Assembly: GCA_017304845.1 (NCBI GenBank) | Contig: JAFKLL010000014.1 | Coordinates: forward strand, 1 to 64,000 | Direction: 5' to 3' | Length of the DNA: 64,000 nt | DNA from: Solirubrobacterales bacterium | GTDB taxonomy: Bacteria > Actinomycetota > Thermoleophilia > Solirubrobacterales > 70-9 | Shown: piece after piece, positions 30,316-54,271 of the stretch | Layout of the letters: each line of letters starts with the position of its first letter | Numbering within the stretch: the stretch's first letter is position 1 | The notes under the pieces: generated by a model | Told to the model about the DNA's origin: nothing | The model's database searches: none | Seen by the model: only the letters and a program-made list of their open reading frames with translations | Position numbers and translations under genes: made by a program

Positions 30316-31061
30316 TCAGCGGCCACGGAAGGCGGGCGGCCGCCGCTCGGCGAAGGCGGCGACGCCCTCGGCGAAGTCCTCGCTGCCCTGCAGGGCCAGG
30401 CCCCACTCGATCGCCTGTTCCAGGTCCGCTTCCCGCCCGGCCACCGCCTCCTTGATGGTGCGGAGCGACAGCGGGGCCCGGGACGCCAGGCGCGCCGCCA
30501 GCTCGCGGGCCCGGTCGAGCTGCCCGCCCTCCGGGGTCACGAAGTTCACGAGGCCTGCGAGCCGCGCCTCCTCCGGCCCGACCGGGTCGCCGCTCATCGC
30601 CAGGTACTTGAGCCAGTGCCGGTCGATCGAGCCCGCGCCCGCGGCCAGCAGGACGCCGGGGACCAGGCCGACCCGGGACTCCGGCACCTGGAAGCGGGCG
30701 GTCTCGTCGCAGACGACCAGGTCGCAGATCAGGGCCAGCTCCAGCCCGCCGCCGATGCAGTGCCCGTGGACCGAGGCGATCACCGGCTTCGGCAGCTCGG
30801 CCAGAGACCGGACCCCGGCCACCGCGTCGGCCAGGAAGGCGCGCCGTTCGTCGGGGCCGGCGATGCCGCTCATGTCGTCGAGGTCGGCGCCGACCGAGAA
30901 GCAGCCGCCGGCGCCCCTGAGGATCACCGCCCGCACCTCCTCGTCGTCGGCCAGCTGGTCGACCGCCTCGCGCAGCCGGGGCCAGAGCGCCGCCGGGAGC
31001 GCGTTCATCCGCTCCGGCCGATCGATGATCAGCTCACCGATCTCGCCCTCCGTCTCGACTC

Positions 31062-31068
<7 letters not shown>
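30316..31068 (-). CDS. Enoyl-CoA hydratase/isomerase family protein
   Basis: 250 residues of the crotonase fold. The oxyanion-hole segments are present: GAGGCFSVGADLDDMSG and HGHCIGGGLELALICDLVVC. Instead of both catalytic glutamates of crotonase, the second region reads ARFQVPESRVGLVPG, with one Glu. It may hydrate enoyl-CoA or act as an isomerase or thioesterase. The start overlaps the synthetase stop by 7 bp; an SDR follows 30 bp downstream. Confidence 0.88.
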
Positions 31069-32740
<1,672 letters not shown>

Positions 32741-32744
<4 letters not shown>

Positions 32745-33898
32745 GAGAGTTGCCCGGCGATGCGCTCCCGGTGCCACCGGGCGTCTCCGAAGAGGGCCTG
32801 GTCCACCTTGATGCGGCGCAGGAAGAGGTGGAGGTCGTGCTCCCAGGTGAAGCCGACCCCGCCGTGGATCTGCAGGGCGTCCCCGGCCACGGCGGCGGTC
32901 GCCTCGGCCGCGTAGGAGGCGGCCACGGGCACCGCTCGCGCGCGCTCCTCGGAGCCGTTCTCGAGGGTCAGGGCGGCGTAGCGGGAGGCGGCGCGCGATG
33001 CCTCGACCCGCAGCAGCATGTCGGCGCACATGTGCTTGACCGCCTGGTAGCTGGCGATCGGGCGTTGGAAGGCGATTCGGTCCATGGCGTACTCCACGGT
33101 CGTCTCCATCAGCAGCTCGGCGGCGCCGATCGCGTCGGAGGCGACCAGCACGGCGGCCAGGTCGAGTGTGTCCGCGTAGCTCCGGGCGCCCTCGCCGATC
33201 CCGCAGGCGAGCCGGCCCGCTTCGACCTCCACCCCGCTCAACTCCACGGTGGCGAAGCGCCGGGTCAGGTCGAGGGTGCGGGAGAGGGTGATCTGGACCC
33301 CGGGGGCCGAGGCCGGGACCACGAAGTCGGTCAGCTCGCCGTCGACCCGGGCGCTGACCACCAGCCACTCGGCCAGGTCGGCGTCGACGACCAGGCTCTT
33401 GCGGCCGTCGAGCACCCAGCCTTCGCCGCGCCGCTCGGCCCGGGTGGCGACCGTGCCCGGACCCCACTCCCCGCCTCGGGGCTCGGGGCCGCACCAGGCC
33501 GCGGTGGTCTCACCGGAGGCCAGGTCCTCCAACAGCTCGACCGCGGCCCCCTCGCGGGCCCGGCCGAGCGCGGCGGCGCCGAGGGCGCAGCCGAGGAAGG
33601 GCGTCCAGTTGGCCGCCCGGCCCAGCTCGGAGGCGATGATGCCGGCCGCCGCCGGGTTGAAGCCGAGGCCGCCGACGCTCTCCGGGGCCAGCACGGCGAT
33701 CCAGCCCATCTCGGCGGCGCGGCGCCAGCCTTCGGGATCCGGTTCCCGGTCGTTCTCCAGGATCGCCCGGGCATCGCCCAGCGGGTAGTGGCGGGCGAGG
33801 AAGCCCCGGGTCGCTTCGAGCAGCTGCTGCTGCTCGTCGTCGAGGTCCAGGTCGACCGGGATCCGGCCGTGGTCTTCAGCAGATGCTGTAGGCGCCAT
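32741..33898 (-). CDS. Acyl-CoA dehydrogenase, partner-type subunit
   Basis: 385 residues with the acyl-CoA dehydrogenase fold. It retains AFQRPIASYQAVKHMCADML and the late ALQIHGGVGFTWEHDLHLFL, but the usual FAD-contact SEPDAGSD stretch is replaced by CGPEPRGGEWG, and the extreme C-terminal arginine/FAD motif is absent. The complementary dehydrogenase encoded at 34653-35846 has exactly those missing parts. This is the pattern of alpha2beta2 FadE heterotetramers known from mycobacterial steroid degradation. It overlaps the SDR gene by 23 bp and the synthetase gene by 4 bp. Confidence 0.87.
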
Positions 33899-34643
33899 CG
33901 ATCTTCAGTACGTCCCCGGTGTGGTAGCTGGACGCGGGCGAGGCCAGGTAGACCGCGGCCGCGCCGATGTCGGCGGGCGTGCCCCAGCGGCGGGTCGGGA
34001 TGCGCGGCATCACCGCGCCGGAGAACCGCTCGTCCTCGAACATCTCGTGGGTGAGGTCGGTGTCGATCCAGCCCGGCATGATCGCGTTGGCGCGGATGCC
34101 CTTGCGGGCCAGCTCGACCGCCAGCGTCTTCACCAGCGGGGCGAGCGCGCCCTTGCTGGCCGCGTAGGCGGCGGAACGGGGCGCGCCCTCGATCGCGGTC
34201 AGCGAGGAGGTCACGACCAGGCTGCCGCCCTCGCCGGACTCGATCATCCGCGAGGCGGCCGCCCTGAGGGTGAGGAACACGCCGTCCAGGTTGACCCGCT
34301 GCACCCGGCGCCACTCGTCCAGCGAGAGCTTCTCGAAGGGGGTCGGCGCGGCGCCGGTGCCGGCGTTCGCGAAGCAGGAGTCGACCCGGCCGAGCAGGGC
34401 GACCGAGGTCTCCATCGCGGTCGCGACCGAAGCCTCGTCGGCGACGTCGCAGACCACGGCGCCGATGTCGGTGCCGTAGGCGGCCAGCTCCTCGCGCGCC
34501 GCCTCGTTCTTGTCCTCGTCGGTGCCCCAGACGACCACGTCGGCCCCGGCCGCCGCCAATGCCTTGGCGACGCCGAGGCCGATGCCGCCGTTGCCGCCGG
34601 TGACCACGGCCCCATGCCCGGCCAGGTTGAACAGTTCGCTCAT
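33876..34643 (-). CDS. SDR-family oxidoreductase
   Basis: 255 residues. TGGNGGIGLGVAKALAAAG is the cofactor motif, CDVADEAS and FANAGTG follow, and the catalytic Ser/Tyr/Lys lie in VVTSSLTAIEGAPRSAAYAA and SKGA. ALAPLVKTLAVELARKGIRA and MPGWIDTDLTHEMF are typical of FabG-like dehydrogenases. GAAAGGAAG precedes the ATG. It lies between two acyl-CoA dehydrogenase genes, so it probably oxidises a hydroxyacyl-CoA or an alcohol intermediate (inference). Confidence 0.87.
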   Translation of the reverse strand: MSELFNLAGHGAVVTGGNGGIGLGVAKALAAAGADVVVWGTDEDKNEAAREELAAYGTDIGAVVCDVADEASVATAMETSVALLGRVDSCFANAGTGAAPTPFEKLSLDEWRRVQRVNLDGVFLTLRAAASRMIESGEGGSLVVTSSLTAIEGAPRSAAYAASKGALAPLVKTLAVELARKGIRANAIMPGWIDTDLTHEMFEDERFSGAVMPRIPTRRWGTPADIGAAAVYLASPASSYHTGDVLKIDGAYSIC

Positions 34644-34652
34644 AACTTCCTT

Positions 34653-35846
34653 TCAGCCCCGCGCTTCCCGGGGCATGCCCAGGGCTCGCTCGGCGATGAT
34701 GTTTCTCATGATCTCGGAGGCCCCGCCGGCCACCGTGTAGGTCCGGGCGTACAGGAACTCGTCCTGCCAGCGGCCGTTCTGACGCACGTCCGGATCGCCC
34801 TCGGTGAGGATCGAGCCGGCGCCCTGCAGGCTCATCGCGTACTCGGCCATGGCCAGGTTCAGCTCGCTGAAGACCAGCTTGCCGATCGGCACGTCCGAGG
34901 GCCGCTCGGCTCCCCGCAGCTCCCGGCCCAGCTTGAGCTGGACCAGCAGGTTGTTGATCTCGATCTCGGTCGCGAAGGAGGCGAGCCGCTGCCGCACGTC
35001 TTCGGAGTCGAGCGGCCGGCGGCCGCTGCCGTCGTCGGTGTCGGCCAGCTCCACCATCAGGTCGAGCAGCTGACGCAGACGGGCGCCGCCGGCCCCGATG
35101 CCGGAGCGTTCGGCGCCGAGGCTGTCCATCGCCACCTGCCAGCCGCGCTCGCGCTCGCCGAGCAGGGAGTCGGCCTCGATCCGCACGTCCTCCATGAAGA
35201 CCTCGCTGAAGTCCTCGGTGCCGGTGATCTCCCGCAGCGGCCTGATCTCCAGGCCGGCGGCGTCCATCGGCACGATGAAGGCGGAGATTCCGCGATGCCG
35301 GTCGAGCGAGGTGTCGCTGCGGGCCAGCAGGAAGCCGAAGTCGGCCCAGGTCGCGTTCGAGGACCAGACCTTCTGGCCGTTGACCAGGTAGCCGCCGTCC
35401 ACCGGCCTGGCCTCGGTCCGCATCGCCGCCAGGTCGGAGCCGGCGTCCGGCTCGCTGAACAGCTGGCACCAGGTCTCGCTGCCGTCGCGGATGGTCGGCA
35501 GGAAGCGGGCCTTCTGCTCCTCGGTGCCGAAGCGGATCAGGGCAAAGGCGGCGAGGTGGGTCTGGTCGGTCAGCGGCGGCAGCCCGGCCCGGGCGACCTC
35601 CTCGCTGATCACCAGGTCGTGGACCGGGTTCCACTCGCCGCTGCCGCCCCACTCCTCGGGCCACTCGGCCCCGAGGTAGCCGACCTCGTAGAGGCGGGCC
35701 CGCCAGGCCTTGCGCACTCGGTCCTCCTCCTCGGTCTCCGGGCTGCGGAAGCCGGCCCGGACCGGGATGTCCGGCGCCTCGGCCTCGAGGAAGGCCCGCA
35801 CCTCGCGGCGGAAGGCCTCGGTCTCGCGATCGTCGGCGATCCTCAT
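34653..35846 (-). CDS. Acyl-CoA dehydrogenase, FAD-motif subunit
   Basis: 397 residues from ATG 35846, which overlaps the hyuB stop (ATGA). It has WPEEWGGSGEWNPVHDLVIS, LFSEPDAGSDLAAMRTEA and LVNGQKVWSSNATWADFGFL, plus the C-terminal AGGASEIMRNIIAERALGMP. A strong HGGxG motif is missing; the sequence reads SLQGAGSILTE. It is complementary to the subunit encoded at 32741-33898. Together they likely form a heteromeric dehydrogenase for a bulky acyl-CoA. Confidence 0.88.
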   Translation of the reverse strand: MRIADDRETEAFRREVRAFLEAEAPDIPVRAGFRSPETEEEDRVRKAWRARLYEVGYLGAEWPEEWGGSGEWNPVHDLVISEEVARAGLPPLTDQTHLAAFALIRFGTEEQKARFLPTIRDGSETWCQLFSEPDAGSDLAAMRTEARPVDGGYLVNGQKVWSSNATWADFGFLLARSDTSLDRHRGISAFIVPMDAAGLEIRPLREITGTEDFSEVFMEDVRIEADSLLGERERGWQVAMDSLGAERSGIGAGGARLRQLLDLMVELADTDDGSGRRPLDSEDVRQRLASFATEIEINNLLVQLKLGRELRGAERPSDVPIGKLVFSELNLAMAEYAMSLQGAGSILTEGDPDVRQNGRWQDEFLYARTYTVAGGASEIMRNIIAERALGMPREARG

Positions 35847-38074
35847 CGCGGCAGCTCCTCGTGGACGGCGAGCGGCATGAAGTTCCAGCGCGGCGCCTCG
35901 CCCGCGTTCGCCACCTCGGTGTCGATCTGGGAGCCGCAGCCTGGGCAGCAGTAGCGCCGGAAGACGAGGTCGCCCTCGGGCCGCTCGGGGATCGGGGCGC
36001 CGATCGAGTCGCCGCTGACCGGCAGCTCCTCGGTCGCCGCCCACCACTTCCAGTTGACGGAGTTGCTGGCGAACTCGTGCTCGCAGGAGCGGCAGCGGTA
36101 GTAGCCGCGCTCGTCGATCTCCAGCCCTTCGCCGAGCACCTGGGGGCCGTCCTGCGGCACCGGCGGCCCGGGCTCGGCGCTGCCGCCCGAACCGTCGCCG
36201 ACCGGCAGGGCCCGTTCGCCCAGCGGCAGGGCCCGCCGCTCGGCCAGGCGCTCCTCGCGGAGGCGGGCGGTGGCGACCGGGTCGATGTCGTCGCCGGCCA
36301 TGACCACGCCGAAGTTCCGTTCGGCCGCCTCGGCGGTGACGAAGCCCCGCCGCACGTCCTCCAGGACCGCTTCCGGGTCCCGGATCAGCGGGTCGCCGAA
36401 GCCGGGGCCGCCGGTGGCGCGGATGTAGTAGCCGTCCTCGGGGGTGACCCGGAAGCCACGGCCACGGGCCGGGGGCCGCTCGGCGGTCTCGGCGTACTCC
36501 TCGACCGGCAGCTCCTCGCCACGGTCCCAGTGCTCCCGGACCGACTCCATCGCCCCACGGGCGAAGCGGATCGTCGCCCCCGCCCCGGGCTGCCCGCCGG
36601 CGATCGCCGAGGAGGGCGCGCTCATGCGGTTGTGGAAGACGACCACGTCCCAGGCCTCGGTGTCATAGGGGGTGCAGAACGACTCCAGCGCGAGGCCGCC
36701 GCGGTGACGGCCGGCGCCGCCGGTGTCGGCCGCGAAACGGGTGTCGAGGAAGAGGACCGGGCTCTGGCTCTCGTACTCCTCCACGTTGGGGATGAAGGCG
36801 TCGATCGTCTGGATGCCCATCATCGCGTTCTCGCCGTCACGATCCTGGACGGCGCTGGCGCCGCCGGAGCCGCCGGTGAAGACGTTCCAGAACCAGGGCT
36901 GCCCGTACTGGTTGGGGCCCTGCAGCCAGGCGAAGGTCCAGCTGCCCCAGGGGCCGCTGCGCCGCCGTGCCGCCTCCGGATGACCGGCCAGCAGGTAGTT
37001 GGAGGCCTCGAGGATCGCGTCGGTCCCGAACCAGCTGGCGTAGACCGTGGCCCCGGAGATCGGCGCCGGCTTGGTCGCGTTGACCAGGGTGCCCTCCGGC
37101 GCGACCACGGTGACCGGGTCGAGCAGGCCCTCGTTGAAGGGCAGGTCGGGCGCGTACACGGTGCCGAGCGCCGCCATCGCGTCGCCGATCGCCCCGACCT
37201 CGGTGCCGTTCAGCACGCCGGGCGCCTGCGGGTCGGTGCCGGTGTAGTCGACGGTGAGCTGGTCGCCGCGCTTGATCACGGCGGCCCGGATCGTGTAGAT
37301 CAGGTCGTCCTCGCCGTCGTGCTCCATGTGGGCGGCGCCACGGTAGACGCCGTCCGGCAGCTGGCTCAGCCGCTCGCGGAAGGCGGTGGCCGCGTTCTCG
37401 ATCTGGGCGGAGTGGATCGCCCGGATGCGATCGGCCCCGTGCTGCTCGATCATCGCCGAGCAGCGCTCCTTGCCCATCCAGACGGCGCCGGTGATCGCCT
37501 TGAGGTCGATCCCGGTCGCCTCGGGCAGACGCACGTTGGTCAGGAAGGCGTCGAGCACGTCCTGCCGGAACTTGCCGCCGTCGTAGAACTTGACCGGCGT
37601 GAACCTGACGTTCTCGCCGAACACGTCGGAGTGCTCGACCGAGTAGCCGCCCGGCACGGCGCCGCCGACGTCGGTGACGTGGGCGCTCACCCCCACCCAC
37701 ATCAGGATCTCGTCGCCGTCGAAGACCGGGGCGACGATCACCACGTCATGGGAGTGGAGCCCGCCGCCCTCGTAGGGGTCGTTGGCGAAGATCACGTCGC
37801 CGGGGCGCAGGTCGTCCTTGAACCGTTCCAGCGAGTGCCGGACCGTGTTCGAGATCGCGTAGCCCATCTGCAGCGACCAGGAGATCGTCGTCAGGATGTT
37901 GCCCTCGGCGTCGAGGCAGCCGCAGGCGAAGTCGGAGGCGGAGACGAAGAGGAAGGAGCCGGAGAGATTGACCAGAGCCCGGCCCATCTCGCGGTTCATG
38001 GTCAGCTCGTAGTTGTAGACGATCTCCGAGAGGACGGGATCGAACTCGGCCGTACCCTGGGCTTGCTGGGTCAT
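35843..38074 (-). CDS. hyuB: Hydantoinase B/oxoprolinase-type carboxylase subunit fused to acetone-carboxylase gamma-like zinc domain
   Basis: 743 residues. Residues 1 to about 560 are HyuB-like (EIVYNYELTMNREMGRALVN, FANDPYEGGGLHSHDVVIVA, WVGVSAHVTDVGGAVPGG, YIRATGGPGFGDPLIRDPEA). After an acidic/Pro linker, residues 658-743 form a separate domain with C661 and C664 (YRCRSCEHEF) and C709, C710, C713 (RYCCPGCGSQ), resembling the small gamma subunit of acetone carboxylase. Acetone, acetophenone and related carboxylases use HyuA/HyuB-like subunits to carboxylate ketones with ATP. The start overlaps the hyuA stop (ATGA). Hydantoin hydrolysis is less likely here. Confidence 0.85.
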   Translation of the reverse strand: MTQQAQGTAEFDPVLSEIVYNYELTMNREMGRALVNLSGSFLFVSASDFACGCLDAEGNILTTISWSLQMGYAISNTVRHSLERFKDDLRPGDVIFANDPYEGGGLHSHDVVIVAPVFDGDEILMWVGVSAHVTDVGGAVPGGYSVEHSDVFGENVRFTPVKFYDGGKFRQDVLDAFLTNVRLPEATGIDLKAITGAVWMGKERCSAMIEQHGADRIRAIHSAQIENAATAFRERLSQLPDGVYRGAAHMEHDGEDDLIYTIRAAVIKRGDQLTVDYTGTDPQAPGVLNGTEVGAIGDAMAALGTVYAPDLPFNEGLLDPVTVVAPEGTLVNATKPAPISGATVYASWFGTDAILEASNYLLAGHPEAARRRSGPWGSWTFAWLQGPNQYGQPWFWNVFTGGSGGASAVQDRDGENAMMGIQTIDAFIPNVEEYESQSPVLFLDTRFAADTGGAGRHRGGLALESFCTPYDTEAWDVVVFHNRMSAPSSAIAGGQPGAGATIRFARGAMESVREHWDRGEELPVEEYAETAERPPARGRGFRVTPEDGYYIRATGGPGFGDPLIRDPEAVLEDVRRGFVTAEAAERNFGVVMAGDDIDPVATARLREERLAERRALPLGERALPVGDGSGGSAEPGPPVPQDGPQVLGEGLEIDERGYYRCRSCEHEFASNSVNWKWWAATEELPVSGDSIGAPIPERPEGDLVFRRYCCPGCGSQIDTEVANAGEAPRWNFMPLAVHEELPR

Positions 38075-40161
38075 CGGTTCACCTCGATCTGCAGGTTGGC
38101 GAAGCCGTCGAGCGAGGCGTCGCAGCGGCAGGGCACGAGGATGGTCGAGTCGGTGTACTCGACGATCGCGGGGCCCGTGACCCGGGATCCCGGGTTGAAG
38201 TCGGTGGCGCGGTAGACCGGCATCTCGGTCAGCTCGACCGAGTCGGTGTCGGCCAGGGCGCGGCGGCTGCCGACCGGCAGCGGCGTCGAACCCAGCCCCT
38301 CGCCGTCGGCCTGGGCGACCGGCGGGCGCGGCACCTTGCCGACCCCCATCACGCGACAGGTCTTGACGTCGTAGCCGTTCTCCGGGGCGGCGGCGCCGGT
38401 GCCGTAGGTGGCGGCGTACCGGGAGTCGAACTCGGCCGCCGCCCGGGCGAACGACTCCTCGCCCGGGGTGCCGTCGCCGACCAGGTCGACCTCGAAGTGG
38501 AGGCTCTGGCCGGCGTAGGCCATCTCGACCGAGTGGCGGATCTCGGTCCGCTCATCGGGGATCGAGTGCACGTCGAGCGAGCCGCGGACCTGGCCTTCGA
38601 GCTGTTCGAAGAGGTCGCTCATCGAGGTCGCGCTGTCCGGCACCGGGACCCCGCCCGGGCCCAGCAGGTCCTTGGTCGAGCGGGCGACGCTGTAGGCCAG
38701 GTCGGTGGAGATCAGCCCGGAGGCCGAGAAGACCGAGGCGAGCGCGGGCACGATCACGCGGCTCATGCCGAGCTCACGCGCGACCGAGGCGCAGTGCAGC
38801 CCGCCCGCCCCTCCGAAGGAGACCAGGGCGAAGGCCCGGGGGTCGAGCCCGGCGAACACGGTGCGGAGCCGGACCGCGTCGGCCATCAGCGCGTTGACGA
38901 TGCGGAAGACTCCGGCCGCCGCGGCGACCTCGGTCATCCCGAGCCGCTCCGCCAGGGGAGCGAACGCCCTCTCGGCGGCCTCGCGGTCGAGGGCCATGTC
39001 GCCGCCGAGGAAGTACTCGGGGTCGAGCAGGCCGAGCAGCAGGTTGGCGTCGGTCACGGTCGGCTCGGTGCCGCCGCGGCCGTAACAGGCCGGGCCGGGC
39101 CGGGCGCCGGCGCTCTCGGGCCCGACCCGCATCGCGCCGTCGGGGCCGACCGTGGCCAGCGAGCCGCCGCCGGCGCCGACCGTGGTCACGTCGACCATGG
39201 TGGTCGCCAGGGCCTGCCGGTCGAGGAACTGCAGCGAGGTGGAGCGCACGTCGCCGTCCTCGATCAGGGCTACGTCGGTGCTGGTGCCGCCCATGTCGAA
39301 GGTGATCAGGTTGCCCTCGCCGCTCTCCTCGCCGAGGGCGCGGGAGGCGAGCACGCCGGCGACCGGGCCGGAGTAGATCGTCTGGCCGGCGGAGGTGACC
39401 GTGTTCTCGATGCTGCCGAGGCCGCCGTCGGACTTCATCAGCAGCAGCTGCCCCTCGAAGCCGCGTTCGCGCAGGCCGCTCAGCAGCTTCCCGGTGTAGG
39501 CCCGGAGCTCCGGGCCGGCGAAGGCGGTGATCACGGTGGTGCTCATGCGCTCGTACTCGCCGATCAGCGGCGCCGCCTCGAAGGAGGTCGCGACGTAGGC
39601 GTCGGGCGCCTCCTCGAGGATCACCCGCTTGGCGAGCTGCTCGTGCTCCGGGTTGCGGAAGGACCACAGGAAGCAGACCGCGAAGGACTTGATGCCCTTC
39701 TCCAGCGCGTTCCCGACCGCTCGCCGCAGCCCCTCCTCGTCGATCGGCACGACGACGCGGCCCTTGTAGTCGACCCGTTCGAGGACCTCCTCGACATCCT
39801 CACGCGGCACCAGCGGCACCGGGTGGGTGACCAGCGAGGGGTCGCGCTGCTGGTTGCGGTACATGCGGGCCAGCTGGTACAGGTCGCCGAAGCCCCTGGT
39901 GGTGAGGAGCGCGACCCGCTCACCCGCCCTGGTCAGGACCACGTTGGTGGTGACCGTGGTCGCGTGCAGGAACTCGTCGACCCGTCCCAGCAGCGAGCGG
40001 CTGTCGGTGCCGAGCGCGTCGGCCACCAGCTCGATGCCGTCGAACACGCCCTGCTCGAAGTCGGGCGGGGTCGACGGTGTCTTCCACCGCCGGAGGCCGC
40101 CGCCCGACTCCTGCAGGACGATGTCCGTGAAGGTGCCGCCGATGTCGATGCCGAGCCTCAA
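38071..40161 (-). CDS. hyuA: Hydantoinase A/oxoprolinase-type ATP-dependent subunit
   Basis: 696 residues. TTG 40161, overlapping the permease stop as TTGA, puts the phosphate-binding loop at the very start (RLGIDIGGTFTDIVLQE), where HyuA proteins have it. Further ASKHA-fold motifs are ITFDMGGTSTDVALIEDG, VDVTTVGAGGGSLA and FALVSFGGAGGLHCASVARE. HyuA binds and cleaves ATP to activate substrate or carbonate, working with HyuB. Coupling to an importer upstream and CoA-activating enzymes downstream favours a carboxylase role in catabolism over 5-oxoproline or hydantoin hydrolysis (inference). Confidence 0.9.
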   Translation of the reverse strand: MRLGIDIGGTFTDIVLQESGGGLRRWKTPSTPPDFEQGVFDGIELVADALGTDSRSLLGRVDEFLHATTVTTNVVLTRAGERVALLTTRGFGDLYQLARMYRNQQRDPSLVTHPVPLVPREDVEEVLERVDYKGRVVVPIDEEGLRRAVGNALEKGIKSFAVCFLWSFRNPEHEQLAKRVILEEAPDAYVATSFEAAPLIGEYERMSTTVITAFAGPELRAYTGKLLSGLRERGFEGQLLLMKSDGGLGSIENTVTSAGQTIYSGPVAGVLASRALGEESGEGNLITFDMGGTSTDVALIEDGDVRSTSLQFLDRQALATTMVDVTTVGAGGGSLATVGPDGAMRVGPESAGARPGPACYGRGGTEPTVTDANLLLGLLDPEYFLGGDMALDREAAERAFAPLAERLGMTEVAAAAGVFRIVNALMADAVRLRTVFAGLDPRAFALVSFGGAGGLHCASVARELGMSRVIVPALASVFSASGLISTDLAYSVARSTKDLLGPGGVPVPDSATSMSDLFEQLEGQVRGSLDVHSIPDERTEIRHSVEMAYAGQSLHFEVDLVGDGTPGEESFARAAAEFDSRYAATYGTGAAAPENGYDVKTCRVMGVGKVPRPPVAQADGEGLGSTPLPVGSRRALADTDSVELTEMPVYRATDFNPGSRVTGPAIVEYTDSTILVPCRCDASLDGFANLQIEVNR

Positions 40162-41252
40162 GCGGTCGCTCCCGCCTGCTGCTGCTTCTGCTTGGCCCGC
40201 CGGTTCGACTTGTTCGAGGTCGATCGGGCGAGCACGACGGCGACGATCAGCGCCAGGCCCTGGTAGGTCTCGACCACCCAGAACGGGATGCCGTAGAGCT
40301 GGAGCCCGTTGATGCCGACCGCGACGATGAACAACGCCACGATCAGCCCCGGCACGTTGAACCGTCCCGGCTTGATCATGGTCGAGCCGAGGAAGGCGGA
40401 GGCGTAGGCCGGCAGCAGGTAGCTGGCGCCGGTGTTGGGCGGGCCGGAGCCGAGGCGGGCCGCGTAGACCACGGCCGCGATGGTCGCGAACAGGGCCGAG
40501 ATCAGGAAGGTGGTGAAGATGATCCGGTTGGTCGGCACGCCGGAGAGGCGGGCCGCCTCCCGCCCGGCGCCGGTGGCGTAGACCTTGCGCCCGAAGGGCG
40601 TGTGGTCGAGCAGGTACCAGACCCCGATCGCCAGCACGATCAGGTACACGGTCGTGAGCGGCACGTCGAAGATCTCGGTCCGGCCGATGCTGGTGAAGGC
40701 CGAGGGGATGTCGCGGGCGATCGTCTCGCCGTTCGCGATCAGCTGCGAGATGCCGACGAAGACGGAGCTGGTGCCGATCGTGGCGATGAAGGGGTCGACC
40801 TTCGCCTTGACCACCAACAGCCCGTTGATCACGCCGGCGCAGAGGCCGGCGATCAGGGTGATCAGGATCGCCGCCGGGATCGGGATGTCGCCGCCGGTGG
40901 TCTGGAACAGCCAGGTGACCAGGACGATCGCGACGGTCATCACGCCGCCGATCGAGATGTCGAAGACCCCGGCCGCCAATGGCAGCAGCAGGCCCAGGGC
41001 GACGATGCCACCGATGGTCTGGTTGCCGACGATGCCGATCAGGTTGTCGTAGGTGAGGAACTTGCCGGGCAGCGTGATCGTGAAGATCACGATCATCAGC
41101 GCCAGCAGCACCACCCCTCCGTAACGCTCCAGGAACGACGCCTGACGGGTCTCGCCCTCGTCGCGCCGGAACCAACCCAGAAATCCGCCCGAGCCGCCCT
41201 GCCCGTCGTCATTGCCCCCGCTGCCCTCCGGCACCGGCTCGGACCTGTTCAC
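40158..41252 (-). CDS. ABC transporter permease, ribose/monosaccharide (RbsC) type
   Basis: About 364 residues from GTG 41252 (GAGGAG nine bases upstream); GTG 41276 is an alternative. After a hydrophilic, Gly/Asp-rich N-terminus come about ten helices with IGIVGNQTIGGIVALGLLLP, GVFDISIGGVMTVAIVLVTW and the EAA-like TGAGREAARLSGVPTNRIIF. The C-terminus is Lys/Gln-rich. It is the channel of the importer with the ATPase and binding protein just upstream. The family usually imports sugars, but relatives move aromatic, polyol or quorum molecules; specificity is unknown. Confidence 0.9.
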   Translation of the reverse strand: MNRSEPVPEGSGGNDDGQGGSGGFLGWFRRDEGETRQASFLERYGGVVLLALMIVIFTITLPGKFLTYDNLIGIVGNQTIGGIVALGLLLPLAAGVFDISIGGVMTVAIVLVTWLFQTTGGDIPIPAAILITLIAGLCAGVINGLLVVKAKVDPFIATIGTSSVFVGISQLIANGETIARDIPSAFTSIGRTEIFDVPLTTVYLIVLAIGVWYLLDHTPFGRKVYATGAGREAARLSGVPTNRIIFTTFLISALFATIAAVVYAARLGSGPPNTGASYLLPAYASAFLGSTMIKPGRFNVPGLIVALFIVAVGINGLQLYGIPFWVVETYQGLALIVAVVLARSTSNKSNRRAKQKQQQAGATA

Positions 41253-41314
41253 CAATTGACTCTCCTCGCTTTTCACTGCTTCTCGCTGCTTTCCCTGTCT
41301 GCGTGCCGCTCGGC

Positions 41315-42838
41315 TCAGGCCGCTGCCGCGGCGCTCCGGTAGCACTCCTCGGTGATCGCCTCACGGGTGATGCGATCGCCGGTCAACTCGGTGGCTATCT
41401 GCCCTCCGCGCACGATCAGGACCCGGCTGCAGATCGCCGCCAGGTCGTCGAGGTCGGAGGAGCAGAGCACCGCAGCCACTCCCTGTGCGGCTGCGTCGCT
41501 GACCAGGTCGAGGATCTCGGCCTTGGCGCCGACGTCCACCCCCTGGGTCGGTTCGTCGAGCACCAGCAGGTCGGGATCGACCCGCAGCCACTTGGCGACC
41601 GCCACCTTCTGCTTGTTGCCGCCGCTGAGCTCCGCCAGCGGCTTCTCCGGCTCGGGCGGCCGGATGTCGAAACGCTTGATCAAGTCCCGCACCTCGCGGC
41701 GCTCGCCGCCCAGGTCGAGGCTGATTCCCTTGGTGATCGGCTTCAGGTCGGAGAGCGTGAGGTTCTCGCGGATGCTCATCTCGCCGATGCCCTTCAGGTC
41801 GCGGGCCGAGGGCAGCACCGCCACCCCGCGGGCGCGCAGGCCCTGCGGCTCGGGCCGCTGGATCGCCTCGCCCTGGACCCTGACCGTGCCGTCCTCGAGC
41901 TCGAGCGAGCCGAGCAGAACGGCGGCGACGTCGTGGACTCCGGAGCCGGCCAGCCCGGCCATGCCGACGATCTCGCCGCTCTGGACGGAGAAGCTGGCCC
42001 CCGCCAGCTCGCCGGCGGTGACCCCCTCGAAGGCGAGCACCTCGCCGGCGTCGCGCGAACGGGTCGCCTCGCGGGCGGCGATCGGCGGCGTCTCCTCGGC
42101 GGTGTCGCCGACGATCAGCTGGACCAGGCGGTCGTTGTCGAACTCGCGGCTGGGGCCGGTGCCGGCGATGCGCCCTTCGCGCAGCACGGTCACCCGGTCG
42201 GAGATCGCGTGGATCTCCTCCAGCCGGTGGGATACGTAGACGATGCCGACGCCCTGAGCGATCGTGCGACGGATCAGCTCGAAGAGGCGGTCGACCTCGG
42301 AAGAAGGAAGGGTCGCGGTCGGTTCGTCGAGGACCAGGACCCGGACGGCGCTCTCGCTCTGCAAGGCGCGGGCGACCGCGACCTGGGTGCGCTCGATCGG
42401 GGTCAGTTCCTCGACCAGGATCTCGGGGTCGAGATCGAGCCCGACGATCGAGAGGATCTCGCGGGCGCGGCTCCGTTCGCGGCGCCAGCGGATGCGCCAG
42501 CCGGGGCCGGTCTCGTAGGTGTCGCCGAGGCGCAGGTTCTCGAGCACGCTGAGGCTGTCGAGCAGGCCGAGCTCCTGGTGGATGAAGCGCAGCCCGGCCC
42601 GGTGGCAGGCCTCGGGGTCCCCGTACGGGACCTCGGTCCCGTCGACCACGAAGGCGCCGCTGTCCGCGTCGGGCTGGTGGAAGCCGGAGAGGACCTTGAT
42701 CAAGGTGGACTTGCCGGAGCCGTTGTGCCCGACCAGGGCATGTACCTCGGACGGCCCGACCGTGAAGCTCACATCGTCGAGGGCACGGGTGCTGACGAAG
42801 GTCTTCGAGACGTCGGAAATCGACAGGATGCTGCTCAC
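41315..42838 (-). CDS. ABC transporter ATPase, double NBD (RbsA/MglA type)
   Basis: 507 residues with two nucleotide-binding domains. NBD1 has a good Walker A (GHNGSGKSTLIK) and Walker B (VLVLDEPTATL), but its signature reads LTPIERTQVAVARAL, not LSGGQ. NBD2 has a true signature (LSGGNKQKVAVAKWL) and Walker B (LLVLDEPTQGVDVG), but a degenerate Walker A (GMAGLAGSGVHDVA). This mosaic leaves one competent composite site, as in other RbsA-like proteins. A promoter with the shared palindrome lies 93 bp upstream. Confidence 0.92.
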   Translation of the reverse strand: MSSILSISDVSKTFVSTRALDDVSFTVGPSEVHALVGHNGSGKSTLIKVLSGFHQPDADSGAFVVDGTEVPYGDPEACHRAGLRFIHQELGLLDSLSVLENLRLGDTYETGPGWRIRWRRERSRAREILSIVGLDLDPEILVEELTPIERTQVAVARALQSESAVRVLVLDEPTATLPSSEVDRLFELIRRTIAQGVGIVYVSHRLEEIHAISDRVTVLREGRIAGTGPSREFDNDRLVQLIVGDTAEETPPIAAREATRSRDAGEVLAFEGVTAGELAGASFSVQSGEIVGMAGLAGSGVHDVAAVLLGSLELEDGTVRVQGEAIQRPEPQGLRARGVAVLPSARDLKGIGEMSIRENLTLSDLKPITKGISLDLGGERREVRDLIKRFDIRPPEPEKPLAELSGGNKQKVAVAKWLRVDPDLLVLDEPTQGVDVGAKAEILDLVSDAAAQGVAAVLCSSDLDDLAAICSRVLIVRGGQIATELTGDRITREAITEECYRSAAAAA

Positions 42839-42897
42839 TTCAAACCACTCTCCTCCTGCTCCAGGGCCGCTCGGCGGGTGCTTCGCGGCCGCCTGCG

Positions 42898-42946
42898 GAT
42901 CATTCCAGACCCTCGCCGTGGGCCAAGCCGATTCTGCGTGGAGAAG
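42898..42946 (-). promoter_or_regulatory. Operator-promoter of importer ATPase / carboxylase operon
   Basis: The palindrome ATTCTGCGTGGAGAAG (42931-42946) is followed on the minus strand, after 4 bp, by -35 TTGGCC (42921-42926), a 17-bp spacer and -10 ATGATC (42898-42903; a 16-bp spacer would give AATGAT). The same arrangement occurs at six other promoters in this window. The ATPase gene starts 60 bp beyond the -10. Confidence 0.7.
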
Positions 42947-42978
42947 AGATCGGCCTGGCCCATGGGAGAGTGGCGCCG

Positions 42979-44100
42979 CTAGTTGCCCCAGAGGGCCTTG
43001 AACTGGTCCTCGAAGCCGGCGGGGCCGTCGTAGGACCCACCGATCTCGGCGGCGTTGCTGTCGTTGATCAGAACCCTGGTCACCGGGGTGTTCGGCTCCA
43101 GCTTCTGGCCGGCGATCACGCGGGCGGCGGCGTCGGCCGCGACCCAGCCGGGCTCGAGCCCGCCGGTGGCGACGTCGGCCGCCTGGATGTCGCCCTGCTG
43201 GATCAGCTCCAGGTTGGGGCCGTCACCGTCGAAGCCGGCGACCTTGATGCTGTCGGACTTGCCGGCCTGCCGCACGACGTCGGCAGCGGCGAGCGCGACC
43301 GCGTCGAAGGTGCCGACCACGTAGTCGATGTCGGGGTTCGACTGCAGCTCCGCCTGGATCTGCTGCGGGAGCGTCGACTGGATGCTGTCGATCGAGAACT
43401 TCAGGGTGTCGACGTTGCAGGTGTCACAGGTCTCCATCTGCTTGGTGAAGGCGTCCATCCGCTGGACGTTGCAGGCGAAGGTGTTGGTGCCGACGAACAG
43501 CACGTTGGCCTTGCCGTCGCTGTCGGCGATGACCCAGTTGGCCAGGTCGGTCGCGCCGGCGCCGCAGGAGTCGCCGCCGACCTCGGTCAGCACGCCGTCG
43601 ACCTTGCCCGGAGGGTTGCCGGTGAACATGCCGATGTGCGGGATGCCGGACTCGGCGACCTTGGTGTAGCTGTCGCCCGCGTCGGTCGCGGCGATGCCGT
43701 TGGTGACGATCACGTCGGGCTTGGCGTTGATCGCATTGGTGAAGCAGCCGGCAATGCGGTCCGGGGTGCTGCCGCCGTCGCAGAGCTCGAACTTGTAGCC
43801 GAGCGCCTCGACGGCCGACTTGAGCGACTTCGCCTTGTCGGCGCAGCCCTCGAGCGACTGATCGCAGGCGACGTGGTAGATGAAGCCCTTCGGCTTGGGC
43901 GTGTACGACTCCGTCTGGAGAATCTCCGTCGGGATCTGGGCGGCCTGGTCGGCTGCCGTCTGGGCGTCCGCGACCACTCCCGAATCGGCGCTGCCGCCGG
44001 AGTCGCCGGAACTGTCGTCGCTGCCGCACCCGGCCACCACGAACGCGCCCACGAGGACGCAGCCGAGCAGCGCGAGGACTTGCTTGAACTTCTTACTCAT
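42979..44100 (-). CDS. ABC transporter substrate-binding lipoprotein, type 1 (ribose-like)
   Basis: 373 residues. A lipoprotein signal ends at the lipobox VVAGC (C25), followed by an acidic Ser/Gly linker. The mature protein has two Rossmann-like lobes (GFIYHVACDQSLEGCADKAK, INAKPDVIVTNGIAAT, DIDYVVGTFDAVALAAADVV, SIKVAGFDGDGPNLELIQQG). Besides the lipidated Cys it has eight Cys, including paired CDTC, many for this family. It captures the imported substrate outside the membrane. GGAGGAG precedes the ATG, and its own operator-promoter lies upstream. Ligand unknown. Confidence 0.92.
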   Translation of the reverse strand: MSKKFKQVLALLGCVLVGAFVVAGCGSDDSSGDSGGSADSGVVADAQTAADQAAQIPTEILQTESYTPKPKGFIYHVACDQSLEGCADKAKSLKSAVEALGYKFELCDGGSTPDRIAGCFTNAINAKPDVIVTNGIAATDAGDSYTKVAESGIPHIGMFTGNPPGKVDGVLTEVGGDSCGAGATDLANWVIADSDGKANVLFVGTNTFACNVQRMDAFTKQMETCDTCNVDTLKFSIDSIQSTLPQQIQAELQSNPDIDYVVGTFDAVALAAADVVRQAGKSDSIKVAGFDGDGPNLELIQQGDIQAADVATGGLEPGWVAADAAARVIAGQKLEPNTPVTRVLINDSNAAEIGGSYDGPAGFEDQFKALWGN

Positions 44101-44227: not shown

Positions 44228-45430
44228 TCATGTCAACTCCCTCAGGAGAGGTGCCGGACGGTAGGCCTCGCCGTACGCGCCGCGCAGCCGCTCCAAGGTC
44301 TCGATCACGCTCTGGAAGCCGATTTGACGGCCCCACTCGATCGGCCCCACCGGCCAGTTGAAGCCCTCCAGCATGGCGGTGTCGATGTCGGCCTCGGTGG
44401 CTATCCCCTCGGCCAGGGTGAAGACGCTCTCGTTGACGATCTGGGCCGACATCCACCCCATCACCGTCGCCGCGTTCGGCCCGGCGATATCGGTCAGGCG
44501 ATCGGGGTCGAGGATCGGCCGGGCATCCCCCACCTCGGGGTCGGGCTCGCGGTGCGGGCCGTGCCCGTACTCGTAGAAGCCCCGCCCGGCCTTGCGGCCC
44601 AACCGGCCAGCGTCGACCATCCTCACCTGGGTCTGCGAGGGTCGCCAACGCGGCTCGCCGAAGGACTGCTCGAAGAAGGAGCGGGCCACGGCCAGGTTGA
44701 TGTCCGCACCGACCAGGTCGACCAGCTCGAACGGCCCCATCGGGAAGCCGCCGCCGAGCCGGCAGATCCGGTCGATCTCGGCCGGGGGCAGGCCCAGCTC
44801 GGTCGCCATCCGGAGGCCCTCCAGGGTGAAGGGGCGGGCGCAGCGGTTGGCGACGAAGCCGATCGCGTCCTGGGCCCGGATCGCGGTCTTGCCCATGCGG
44901 GTCACGGCCCGGTGGGCCCGATCGGCGCAGCCCGGGTCGGTGGCCTCGCCGGAGACCACCTCGACCAGGCTCATCGCCGGCACCGGGTTGAAGAAGTGGA
45001 GCCCGAGCATCCGCTCCGGCCGTGCGAGGCCGGCGGCGATAGCGGTGACCGAGAGCGAGGAGGTGTTGGTGGCGAGTACGGTCTCCTCCGGGCAGGCCGC
45101 CTCCAGACGCTGGAAGATCTCGCGTTTCAGCTCCAGCGACTCGGGCACCGCCTCGATCGCCAGCCCGGCCTCGGCGGCCCCGTCGAGCGTGTCCACCACC
45201 TCGATCCGGGCGAGCCCGGCCTCGGCCTGATCGGCGCTCCAGAAGCCGCGGCCGACCCCGCGTTCGAGCGAGCCGGCGATGCGGTCCCGGACCGTGTCGC
45301 GGGCGGCTTGGACCGGATCGAAGACCAGGCAGCGAAGGCCGCCCATCGCCGCGACCTGGGCGATGCCGGCACCCATGGTGCCCGCCCCCACGACCGCGAC
45401 GACGTCGATCTCCGGGCGGGCGTCGGACAT
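44228..45430 (-). CDS. 3-hydroxyacyl-CoA dehydrogenase
   Basis: 400 residues. The NAD-binding fold opens with VAVVGAGTMGAGIAQVAAMG; catalytic and hinge motifs are LGLHFFNPVPAMSLVEVVSG and AIGFVANRCARPFTLEGLRM. Two C-terminal 3HCDH helical modules follow (GGGFPMGPFELVDLVGADIN; then AMLEGFNWPVGPIEW), so it is longer than the minimal 280-residue enzyme. It oxidises 3-hydroxyacyl-CoA to 3-ketoacyl-CoA with NAD. It is the last gene of the operon starting at the IclR gene, 5 bp after an enoyl-CoA hydratase gene. Confidence 0.93.
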   Translation of the reverse strand: MSDARPEIDVVAVVGAGTMGAGIAQVAAMGGLRCLVFDPVQAARDTVRDRIAGSLERGVGRGFWSADQAEAGLARIEVVDTLDGAAEAGLAIEAVPESLELKREIFQRLEAACPEETVLATNTSSLSVTAIAAGLARPERMLGLHFFNPVPAMSLVEVVSGEATDPGCADRAHRAVTRMGKTAIRAQDAIGFVANRCARPFTLEGLRMATELGLPPAEIDRICRLGGGFPMGPFELVDLVGADINLAVARSFFEQSFGEPRWRPSQTQVRMVDAGRLGRKAGRGFYEYGHGPHREPDPEVGDARPILDPDRLTDIAGPNAATVMGWMSAQIVNESVFTLAEGIATEADIDTAMLEGFNWPVGPIEWGRQIGFQSVIETLERLRGAYGEAYRPAPLLRELT

Positions 45431-45435
45431 CCGAC

Positions 45436-46245
45436 TCAGCCCCGCTCCGCCAGCTTGGCTTCGAGCTCGGCGACCCGCTCCGCGAGCAGCCGCTTCGACT
45501 CGTCCGTGTTGTGGCTCAGTTGGTGGGTGAGGAAGTGGTAGGCGGCAGCGTCATCACGCCCCCGGCGTCCCTCGATGAACCGGAAGGACATCTTCGAAAG
45601 GGCGAGCGCCTCGGGCGGCACCCGCTCCAACTCGGCGACCACCTCGTCCACCTTGGCTTCGAGCCGGTCGGCCGGCACCACCCAGTTGACCAGGCCGAGC
45701 CCCAGCGCCTGCTCGGCGTCGAGTCCCTCGCTCAGCCAGAGCATCTGCTTGGCCCGGCGCTCGCCCAGCTCCCAGGCGACGGTCGGCAGCTCGACGTCGT
45801 CGGCTCCCTGGTCCCGGGTCACCTGAGAGCTGAACCGGGCGTCGTCGGCGGCGACGACCAGATCGCAGGCGCTGACCAGCATCAGGGCGGCCGCCATGCA
45901 GTAGCCGTGGACCTGGCAGACCACCGGCATCGGCAGGTCGCGCAGCAGCTCGACCGGGCGGACGAACAGCTCCGCCTCCTGCCAGAGCCGGCCCTCGACC
46001 GATTCGAGGTTCCGCCGGTACTCGGGGTCGACGACGGCGGCCTTGAGGTCGTGGCCGGAGCTGAAGGAGCGGCCGGCGCCGGCCAGGACGACGGTTCGGA
46101 TGTCCTTGCGGTCCCGGGTCTCGAGCAGCGCCGACTCCAGCTCGCGCAGCAGCTCGGGGCTCTGGGCGTTGTGGGTTCGGGGCCGGTTCAGCGTGATCCG
46201 GCGGCTGGCGCCGCGGTCCTCGACCAGGATCAACGGTTCGCTCAT
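45436..46245 (-). CDS. Enoyl-CoA hydratase/isomerase family protein
   Basis: 269 residues from ATG 46245 (GAAGGAG upstream). Crotonase-fold oxyanion segments: GAGRSFSSGHDLKAAV and QVHGYCMAAALMLVSACDLV. The usual catalytic Glu positions are replaced or shifted (TRDQGADDVELPTVAWELGE). The protein may therefore be a specialised hydratase, isomerase or ring-cleaving crotonase. Its start overlaps the upstream dehydrogenase stop by 4 bp. Confidence 0.86.
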   Translation of the reverse strand: MSEPLILVEDRGASRRITLNRPRTHNAQSPELLRELESALLETRDRKDIRTVVLAGAGRSFSSGHDLKAAVVDPEYRRNLESVEGRLWQEAELFVRPVELLRDLPMPVVCQVHGYCMAAALMLVSACDLVVAADDARFSSQVTRDQGADDVELPTVAWELGERRAKQMLWLSEGLDAEQALGLGLVNWVVPADRLEAKVDEVVAELERVPPEALALSKMSFRFIEGRRGRDDAAAYHFLTHQLSHNTDESKRLLAERVAELEAKLAERG

Positions 46246-47279
46246 CTGCTCCTTCTTTCCAGGTAGTTGGCTCCGACCAGCTCTGCCGTGGCCGAGTCGC
46301 CGCCCAGCAGGAACTGGACCGCGAGGATGCGTCGGTAGTGGAGGTGCAGGCCGAGCTCCCAGGAGAAGCCGATCCCGCCATGCACCTGGATCGCGCCCTC
46401 GCAGGCCGTCCGCGCGGCGGCCGGCACCGCGTGGGCGAGGGTCGCCCGCCAAAGCTCAAGCTCGGCCTCGTCGGCCTCGTTCTCCTCGTCCAGGTCGACG
46501 ATGCGGCCGATCCCCGCCCGGGAGGTCTCCAGCGCCAGCTTCATCTCGGCGAGCAGGTGCGCCACCGCCTGGAAGGAGGAGATCGGGCGGCCGAACTGCT
46601 GCCGCTGGTCGGCGTACTCGGCCGAGATCTCCAGGGTCCGTTCGGCCGCGCCGAAGGCTTCGCAGGCCAGGCTGAGCTCGTACTCGCGCCGCACCCGGGC
46701 GGCCCGCTCGCCGGCCAGCGAGGCGAGCGGGTCGGAGCCGGTGGCATCGACCCGGCTCAGGCCCTGCCCGGCGTCGAGCCCGTTCAGCGCGGTCAGCTCC
46801 ACCCCGTCCTCGAGCCGGTGGAGCTCGATCCGGTCCGGGCCGAGCAGGACCAGCAGCTCGCCGCCCTCGGGCATCAGCGTGTACGCGGCGCCGTCGGACC
46901 GGGAAGAGAGAGCCACCCCGGCCCGCAGCTCGCCCTCGGTCAGGCGGTCGAGCAGCGGGGCCACCCCGTCCTGGTCGGCCAGGACGGCGAGGGCCGGCAC
47001 CGCCCCGAAGATCTCGTCCCGGAGGCCGGCCGGGACCAGGTGGCGGCCGAGCACGGCGGCCAGCCGGACACGGTCGGCCAGCGGCAGGCCGAGCCCGCCC
47101 GAGCCCTCGTCGAGCGCGACCCCGTGCAGGCCCAGCCCGACCATGGTCGCGGTCGACTCGGCCGGCAGCGGCAGATCGTCGCGGGTCGCCTCGAGCAGCG
47201 CCTCGGTGTCGAGGATCTTGCCCAGCGACTCGTCCAGCGACCTGGCGAGATCGATGCCCTCAGGTGTCGCGACGCTCAT
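46242..47279 (-). CDS. Acyl-CoA dehydrogenase, partner-type subunit
   Basis: 345 residues, short for the family. The N-terminal region (LEATRDDLPLPAESTATMVG, GVALDEGSGGLGLPLADRVR) is followed by a reduced beta-domain without the SEPxAGSD motif, then YADQRQQFGRPISSFQAVAH and AIQVHGGIGFSWELGLHLHY. These are the parts missing from the dehydrogenase encoded at 47276-48436. The two genes overlap by 4 bp, so a heteromeric alpha2beta2 FadE-like enzyme is likely. Confidence 0.87.
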   Translation of the reverse strand: MSVATPEGIDLARSLDESLGKILDTEALLEATRDDLPLPAESTATMVGLGLHGVALDEGSGGLGLPLADRVRLAAVLGRHLVPAGLRDEIFGAVPALAVLADQDGVAPLLDRLTEGELRAGVALSSRSDGAAYTLMPEGGELLVLLGPDRIELHRLEDGVELTALNGLDAGQGLSRVDATGSDPLASLAGERAARVRREYELSLACEAFGAAERTLEISAEYADQRQQFGRPISSFQAVAHLLAEMKLALETSRAGIGRIVDLDEENEADEAELELWRATLAHAVPAAARTACEGAIQVHGGIGFSWELGLHLHYRRILAVQFLLGGDSATAELVGANYLERRSR

Positions 47280-48436
47280 CTTGAAGCCCCCAGTCCGAGC
47301 AGCTGCTTGGAGATGATGTTCAGCTGGATCTCCGTGCTGCCCCCGTAGATCGAGACCGACCGGCCTTCCAGCAGGTCATGGGTCCATTGGTTGTAGGTGA
47401 GCGCGACCTCGGGGCCCAGCAGGTCCACCGCCGTCGCGAAGAGGTCCTGCTCCACCCGCGAGAGGTGGAGCTTGTCGATCGAGGTCGAGCCGGCCGGCAG
47501 ATCGTCGGCCGCCTGGCCGGCGAGGGTGCGATAGCCCTGCGCCTTGAGCAGCTCCAGGCCGGTGTGGATCCGGCCCAGCCGCTCCCGCACGCCCCGCTCG
47601 GAGGCCCGGCCCGACTCGAGCATCCGGTCGGCCAGCTCGTCGAGCGCCCGACGCAGCCGGATCTGCCGTTCGAGCACGAAGAGGCCGCGCTCGTAGGAGA
47701 GCATCCGCATCGCGGCCGCCCAGCCGTTGCCGAGCCCGCCGATCACGTCCTCGACCCGAGCCTCGACGTCGTCGAGGAAGACCTCGTTGAAGTGGCGCTC
47801 GCCCAGCATCTGCGGCAGCGCCACCACGTTCACGCCCGGGTCCTCCATGTCGACGATCACCAGCGAGAGGCCGTGATGCCGTTCCGAGCCGGGCTCGGTC
47901 CGCACCAGGCAGGCGCAGCGGCGGGCGATGTGGGCCCGCGAGGTCCAGACCTTCTGGCCGTTGATGATGATCCGGTCGCCGTCGACCCTGCCCCGCGAAC
48001 GGATCGCCGCCAGGTCGGAGCCGGCCTCCGGCTCGGAGAAGCCCTGACACCAGGACTCGGTCGCGTCGAGCATCGGCCGCAGGTACCGCTCGGCCTGCCC
48101 CTCGTCGCCGAAGTCCATGATCGTCGGGCCGCACATGTAGACGCCGATCCGGTTGATCAACTCCGGCATGCCGGTGGTCGCCAGCTCCTCGGAGAAGACC
48201 GCCTCGGCCCGCAGGTCGAGGCCGGAGCCGCCGTAGCGCTCGGGCCAGGAGAGCCCGATGTACCCGGCCCCGTGCAGCTTCTGCTGCCAGGCCAGCAGCG
48301 CGGCCAGGCGCTGCTCGAAGTCCTCGGGCGGGGCGCCGGGGTCGTTGGCGGCCATCCATGCCCTGATCTCGGCCCGGAGCGTCTCGTCCTCGGGACGAAA
48401 GCTCAGGGTCTCCACGGGCAGTTGTCCCATCGTCAT
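47276..48436 (-). CDS. Acyl-CoA dehydrogenase, FAD-motif subunit
   Basis: 386 residues. Motifs: SWPERYGGSGLDLRAEAVFS, QGFSEPEAGSDLAAIRSRGR, IINGQKVWTSRAHIARRCAC and the C-terminal SIYGGSTEIQLNIISKQLLG. The substrate-side HGG motif is absent; it is supplied by the partner encoded by the next gene, to which it is coupled by ATGA. This organisation mirrors the FadE28/FadE29-like heterotetramers that act on large or branched acyl-CoAs. Confidence 0.9.
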   Translation of the reverse strand: MTMGQLPVETLSFRPEDETLRAEIRAWMAANDPGAPPEDFEQRLAALLAWQQKLHGAGYIGLSWPERYGGSGLDLRAEAVFSEELATTGMPELINRIGVYMCGPTIMDFGDEGQAERYLRPMLDATESWCQGFSEPEAGSDLAAIRSRGRVDGDRIIINGQKVWTSRAHIARRCACLVRTEPGSERHHGLSLVIVDMEDPGVNVVALPQMLGERHFNEVFLDDVEARVEDVIGGLGNGWAAAMRMLSYERGLFVLERQIRLRRALDELADRMLESGRASERGVRERLGRIHTGLELLKAQGYRTLAGQAADDLPAGSTSIDKLHLSRVEQDLFATAVDLLGPEVALTYNQWTHDLLEGRSVSIYGGSTEIQLNIISKQLLGLGASR

Positions 48437-51978: not shown

Positions 51979-51999
51979 GCTGCTCTCGATCTCCCTCGC

Positions 52000-52893: not shown

Positions 52894-52930
52894 GGTCTCC
52901 TCTCAGCAGCCGGACGAGCGGCTGCGGCCG

Positions 52931-52979
52931 ATGGTTGCAACGCCGAAAGCGAACGCAAACCTGTTTCTCCATAGAGAAT
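52931..52979 (-). promoter_or_regulatory. Operator-promoter of the IclR gene and downstream operon
   Basis: TTTCTCCATAGAGAAT (52964-52979) lies 4 bp from -35 TTTGCG (52954-52959), then a 17-bp spacer and -10 AACCAT (52931-52936), reading on the minus strand. The -10 is weak, as expected of an activator-dependent promoter. Its centre is 43 bp from that of the thiolase operator. Confidence 0.65.
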
Positions 52980-53006
52980 TTACGTGTGAGCGGACCTCGG
53001 CTCTCC

Positions 53007-53055: not shown

Positions 53056-53061
53056 TCCCGC

Positions 53062-54231: not shown

Positions 54232-54271
54232 ACCCCTCACCGAATCACCAACCCAGGAGCTCTGACCCGAT

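Follow-up and report, generated by a model that had tools for sequence, protein, structure and literature searches.

Within the published scheme, enzymes of this family fall into three classes: acetone carboxylases (Acx), composed of alpha, beta and gamma; acetophenone carboxylases (Apc), composed of alpha, alpha', beta, gamma and epsilon; and the hydantoinase type (Hyd), composed of alpha and beta without gamma (PMC5214803). In acetone carboxylase, the enol and bicarbonate are both activated at a single site by two phosphates of one ATP, gamma and beta, and the activated products react ~40 Å away at the metal (PMC5543143). The stretch of DNA analyzed here, hereafter the window, comprises 64,000 nucleotides of a Solirubrobacterales bacterium (contig JAFKLL010000014.1, positions 1 to 64,000), and it carries a gene for HyuB fused to a gamma-type zinc domain, next to the gene for its ATP-binding partner HyuA. 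We propose, with a probability of about 0.58, that HyuA and HyuB-gamma constitute a metal- and ATP-dependent carboxylase of the hydantoinase/ketone-carboxylase superfamily, with three subunits in two polypeptides, that belongs to a third gamma-bearing class besides Acx and Apc; ketone carboxylation would be the likeliest chemistry of the pair. That the pair is not a classical hydantoinase is well supported by its lineage and composition. The features that matter for this proposal are the following.

35843..38074, minus strand: HyuB-gamma fusion, whole gene, an open reading frame of 743 amino acids with PF02538 and PF08882 both above cut-off
36239..38041, minus strand: HyuB core, residues 12-612, containing the metal ligands and the motif WLQGPNQY, common to the alpha subunit of acetone carboxylase
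35846..36157, minus strand: gamma (PF08882-type zinc) domain with the end of the linker, residues 640-743; putative zinc ligands Cys661, 664, 710 and 713
38071..~40176, minus strand: HyuA, ASKHA-type ATP-binding partner of ~700 amino acids, exact start uncertain; PF05378, PF01968 and PF19278

Acetone carboxylase of Xanthobacter autotrophicus (PDB 5m45, 5svb, 5svc) resembles the window pair in having one ATP-binding, one metal and one gamma subunit, in the A-B-gamma order with gamma downstream of B, in a gamma chain to which the window tail aligns, in an NQY motif beside the pocket and in His/Asp/His metal ligands; it differs in that the window gamma is fused to HyuB, that the window lies outside the Acx clade and that Glu89, a labile metal ligand of Acx, corresponds to Asp48. 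Acetophenone carboxylase of Aromatoleum aromaticum (PDB 5l9w) shares the gamma, the metal-site Asp and a CoA ligase in the operon, whereas the window possesses neither the second ATP subunit (alpha') nor epsilon, falls outside the Apc clade and does not place its gamma between alpha' and alpha as in the Apc order, alpha'-gamma-alpha-beta(-epsilon); the score against the NCBIfam equivalog ApcD is 137 bits, below the cut-off of 1500. Caprolactamase CapAB of Pseudomonas jessenii (PDB 6yra) is likewise a two-gene A/B pair with high core similarity and the same metal and ATP residues, but it has no gamma and no NQY motif and belongs to the gamma-less group. The top core match is the ATP-dependent N-methylhydantoinase (PDB 7hk5 and others; 387 bits for HyuA and 197 bits for HyuB), in which A and B are fused together and gamma is missing. 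An earlier note, made from the letters of this DNA, had called the pair a three-in-two ketone carboxylase, and the three-in-two composition is borne out: two polypeptides hold a single A, a single B and a single gamma, arranged A-B-gamma as in acetone carboxylase.

HyuA lies immediately upstream of HyuB-gamma, whose ATG start codon overlaps the HyuA stop by 4 bases (ATGA). The earlier note had the coordinates of the fusion right and did not state its strand, which is the minus strand. Hydantoinase_B (PF02538) covers HyuB residues 12-562 (E 1e-113), and the linker at ~617-645, which had been described as Pro/Glu, turned out to be Gly/Ser/Pro-rich. It leads into a separate C-terminal domain extending over ~645-732 and containing, as the note had read them, a CxxC and a CCxxC motif (Cys661, 664, 709, 710 and 713); the four putative zinc ligands thus form two pairs, Cys661/664 and Cys710/713, ~50 residues apart. 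The identification of this domain as an acetone carboxylase gamma, called gamma-like in the note, was confirmed by sequence searches. PF08882 (Acetone_carb_G) matches residues 659-725 at 24.4 bits in the context of the whole protein (gathering cut-off 21) and at 28.2 bits (E 2e-6) when the tail is searched on its own. Against all PDB sequences, phmmer returned acetone carboxylase gamma as the sole credible matches (5m45_C, E 0.004; 5svb_C, E 0.006), with the CxxC/NWK region and the REY.CP.CG motif lined up. An independent profile, composed of Acx- and Apc-type gammas with the window family and its near kin left out, scores the tail at 29.1 bits. None of 2000 shuffled tails exceeded 10.7 bits, and none of 2000 tails shuffled around fixed cysteines exceeded 9.9 bits, so the match reflects more than cysteine spacing, and chance spacing is ruled out as its cause.

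Two other readings, that the tail belongs to an unrelated zinc-ribbon family or that the fusion arose through an error of sequencing or assembly, we consider very improbable. In their favor, the Pfam match reaches a modest 24 bits, and a tail model built from three sequences is weak (predicted local distance difference test [pLDDT] score of 58): its top Foldseek match is the acetone carboxylase gamma chain (5svc_C) at a non-significant E value of 0.94, and VIA-align of this low-confidence model found unrelated beta folds only. Nevertheless, the shuffle controls, the independent profile and the phmmer matches speak for a gamma domain, and the other zinc families of Pfam score far under their own cut-offs. 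The same fusion is present in two relatives known from metagenome-assembled genomes (L052 and L053, 82-83% identity), in L149 (67%) and in many more distant loci, so that a frameshift or assembly error does not account for it, and gamma is simply the next gene in L061 and L068.

The four zinc cysteines are intact in 60 of the 64 gamma domains compared. Two to four of them are lost in L065, L124, L137 and L175, which represent four separate lineages; in the gamma tail of L175 (L175:9126-9464), all four are gone and the remaining domain sequence is still recognizable. This pattern of loss fits a structural role and argues against zinc catalysis. The function of gamma is unknown in Acx and Apc as well (PMC5543143, PMC5214803).

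The position of the pair was assessed with trees of the HyuA and HyuB cores from which the gamma tail was left out. In a careful A+B tree (34 rows, 1255 columns), one branch with 100/100 support, recovered in every bootstrap tree, separates all 23 gamma-bearing rows from all 11 gamma-less rows, and quick trees of 47, 55 and 73 rows gave the same split. Of the reference enzymes, Acx and Apc lie on the gamma side, and caprolactamase and N-methylhydantoinase on the gamma-less side. Acx and Apc together form a 100/100 group that does not include the window lineage, i.e., the window, L052 and L149 (L053 in other sets). The AU test had left the position of this lineage in a first B-only tree unfixed, hence the denser sampling and the A+B trees; in the B-only tree, placing it beside the hydrolases gives a slightly better likelihood and is not rejected, which is compatible with a lineage lying just outside them. 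Nesting with the N-methylhydantoinase half of the hydrolases was rejected (77 log-likelihood units worse, p 3e-89). The claim of the earlier note, a ketone carboxylase and not a hydantoinase, is partly supported: the A and B cores fall outside the gamma-less hydrolases (100/100), but they also lie outside the Acx and Apc clades and face the hydrolases (97/93). As judged from these trees, the window enzyme sits in a third gamma-bearing group, apart from the Acx and Apc clades and apparently uncharacterized. The other members of this group (e.g., L054, L057, L066, L150, L161 and L170) are deep branches between Acx/Apc and the hydrolases; they share the A plus B-gamma composition, mostly in fused form, and differ from the window in their operons and in HyuB sequence (~26-36% identity). 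Text searches of the open-access literature, with subscription papers outside their scope, found no characterized member of the third class and no description of a HyuB-gamma fusion, and judged on these papers the class has not been described.

The catalytic apparatus of both cores is conserved. HyuA retains the equivalents of CapA D11 and D295 and the GxxPGP motif of the ATP site, and the four-ligand metal site of HyuB is intact, with Asp48, His107, Asp110 and His132 equivalent to D41, H99, D102 and H124 of CapB (ligand identities for caprolactamase and acetone carboxylase from PMC8453981 and PMC5543143). Furthermore, the sequence WLQGPNQY of HyuB (NQY 388-390) resembles WLQGGGFNQY of acetone carboxylase (NQY445-447), which lies beside the substrate pocket, between the pocket residues Trp438 and Phe456 (PMC8453981). 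The core motif [NDTS]Q[YWHRF] occurs in 30 of 39 gamma-bearing rows and in none of 16 gamma-less rows; since it was chosen post hoc and the rows are related, we take it as supporting evidence and not as independent proof.

Gamma domains are neither confined to the window nor always fused. Within the class, 26 of 199 genomes contain PF08882 matches, and within the phylum, 18 of 296; the window's own genome has a further HyuA/HyuB-gamma pair, L054, on a different contig. Across dozens of related loci, gamma occurs in fused, adjacent or separate form, and each gamma that was placed is partnered with HyuA and HyuB. The fused A-B-gamma arrangement is seen in the window, L052-L054, L056-L060, L062-L067, L149, L150, L161-L166, L170, L172-L173 and others; A-B followed by a separate gamma gene in L061, L068, L176 and the Acx loci L126-L128; the acetophenone carboxylase type, A'-gamma-A-B, in L070, L071, L129-L136 and L139-L141; and gamma-A-B beside a second, fused A-B-gamma pair, i.e., two HyuAB pairs each with its own gamma, in L167, L171 and L174. 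The loci with a split A-B and gamma confirm the tail as a gamma subunit. B-gamma fusions also occur inside the true acetone carboxylase clade within the same class (L072, L073, L124, L125, L142 and L143), apparently as a separate fusion event, and at least five changes between fused and separate gamma are needed on the tree. Since the two states interchange repeatedly, the fusion itself carries no extra weight and it is the presence of gamma that matters. The earlier note had argued from the fusion; the argument is sound against a classical hydantoinase, but it does not fix the chemistry.

Based on what is known of Acx and Apc, HyuA would use a single ATP site to phosphorylate first the enol form of a ketone-like substrate and next bicarbonate; because the operon has one HyuA and no second copy, it would perform both activations itself, as in Acx and not as in Apc. 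The phosphorylated intermediates would then move to the metal site of HyuB, where the C-C bond would be made and a beta-keto acid released. Gamma may pack on HyuB and be held there by the linker, a task that in Apc and Acx falls to a C-terminal arm clasping gamma. The surrounding operon suggests that the substrate could be imported by a sugar-type ATP-binding cassette (ABC) transporter and/or produced by a short-chain dehydrogenase/reductase (SDR), and that the product could be activated by the CoA ligase and broken down by the acyl-CoA dehydrogenases and the hydratase. The genes in question are as follows.

40158..44100, minus strand: whole ABC transporter of the sugar-uptake (CUT2) type, conserved beside HyuAB in L052 and L053
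40158-41345, minus strand: ABC permease of this transporter
41315-42838, minus strand: ABC ATPase of this transporter
42979-44100, minus strand: Peripla_BP_4 binding protein of this transporter
34653..35843, minus strand: acyl-CoA dehydrogenase, PimC-like (ACAD2), directly after HyuB in L052 and L053 too
33876..34643, minus strand: SDR oxidoreductase (SDR2), conserved operon
32741..33898, minus strand: acyl-CoA dehydrogenase, PimD-like (ACAD1), conserved operon
31062..32600, minus strand: AMP-forming acyl-CoA ligase, conserved operon
30316..31068, minus strand: enoyl-CoA hydratase/isomerase, conserved operon

The block from the transporter through the enoyl-CoA hydratase is kept in L052 and, up to the contig end, in L053. 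Its composition fits carbon catabolism, and amidase, carbamoylase and aminotransferase genes are absent from the conserved block. By itself the operon leaves the chemistry undecided, because a carboxylate feeding a CoA ligase fits carboxylation and hydrolysis alike. Of 28 third-class loci, 17 have an SDR no more than 3.5 kb from HyuB, compared to 4 of 17 gamma-less loci (p 0.03); in these neighborhood statistics, neither CoA ligase nor acyl-CoA dehydrogenase was significantly enriched. Other third-class operons vary and include an aldehyde dehydrogenase and an ABC transporter (L054), an HMG-CoA reductase and an HMGL-like protein (L062), or a CoA ligase and an old-yellow-enzyme-like protein (L066). 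At L060:1009-9890, the HyuA/HyuB-gamma pair stands beside an SDR, an aldehyde ferredoxin oxidoreductase and a methylaspartate mutase E chain (MutE).

Several observations weigh against a ketone carboxylase, and some of them speak for an ATP-dependent hydrolase of cyclic amides or imides, with hydantoinase/lactamase chemistry, that retained an ancestral gamma as a structural part and delivered its carboxylate product to the CoA ligase, a proposal that we regard as less likely. In pairwise searches the window cores match hydrolases more strongly than carboxylases, and N-methylhydantoinase and caprolactamase, the closest solved relatives, match best. Within the gamma-bearing part of the tree, the window lineage, together with L062 and L166, lies toward the hydrolases (97/93), nearer to them than Acx and Apc are, and the B-only tree that places it next to them, though not inside them, is as good as the free tree. 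Asp48 is the metal ligand found in hydrolases and Apc, where Acx has Glu, and the NQY motif is absent from the two deep gamma-bearing neighbors L062 and L166. A dihydropyrimidinase and a carbamoylase, plus a mycofactocin-type SDR, are encoded a few kilobases upstream of HyuA in L052, and the SDR enrichment is weak, with a p value of 0.12 at 4-kb flanks. Lastly, the idea that gamma means carboxylase rests on few points, since activity is known for only two gamma-bearing clades, and these do not bracket the window lineage. On the other hand, no gamma-less row lies on the window side of the 100/100 branch, nesting on the N-methylhydantoinase side is rejected, the NQY motif is missing from all 16 gamma-less rows, and the conserved operon lacks amidase, carbamoylase and aminotransferase genes; the hydantoin-type genes of L052 are absent from L053, which has other genes there, and from the HyuAB neighborhood of the window, which has beta-oxidation-type genes. 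It is improbable, in our view, that the enzyme carboxylates a substrate other than a ketone enolate or drives another reaction by ATP-dependent phosphorylation, for example on a lactone, which would make it neither a ketone carboxylase nor any familiar type of hydrolase; the diversity of the third-class operons (L054, L060, L062, L066) and the lack of a characterized member in the literature searched leave room for such chemistry, but the metal site, the ATP site and gamma are all conserved, suggesting a shared phosphorylate-then-transfer mechanism. A ketone carboxylase remains our preferred interpretation.

Extending it to the whole group, we tentatively suggest that the third gamma-bearing class, with gamma usually fused to HyuB, may carboxylate substrates besides acetone and acetophenone, possibly polar, sugar-like or cyclic ketones, and that the gamma-less hydantoinases and lactamases may be a single offshoot that lost both gamma and carboxylation. 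The tree is unrooted, so that gamma could have been either gained once or lost once. Very many genes annotated "hydantoinase/oxoprolinase" have no tested function. A gamma domain is recognizable in the bare sequence; its distribution here matches a single deep branch of the family, and it flags an additional class liable to be misannotated as hydantoinase. If gamma tracks carboxylation, it would provide a simple marker for biotin-independent carboxylases; a gamma-bearing hydrolase would, in turn, overturn the idea that ties gamma to carboxylation. The zinc gamma subunit is otherwise known only from ketone-carboxylating enzymes, and the group to which the window belongs is widespread and apparently unstudied.

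Directly upstream of the HyuAB operon, a second cluster resembling fatty-acid or steroid degradation genes (44228-56298) encodes HADH, enoyl-CoA hydratases, IpdE2- and PimC-like acyl-CoA dehydrogenases, an APH-family kinase, an IclR regulator and a thiolase. It is followed by mycofactocin genes (56295-60961), namely, mftF (56295-57692), mftD (58381-59685), mftC (59562-60686) and mftB (60683-60961), all above their NCBIfam cut-offs, and a mycofactocin-coupled SDR is encoded at ~49489-50322. Together, these genes place redox partners of alcohol oxidation within ~20 kb of the HyuAB operon.

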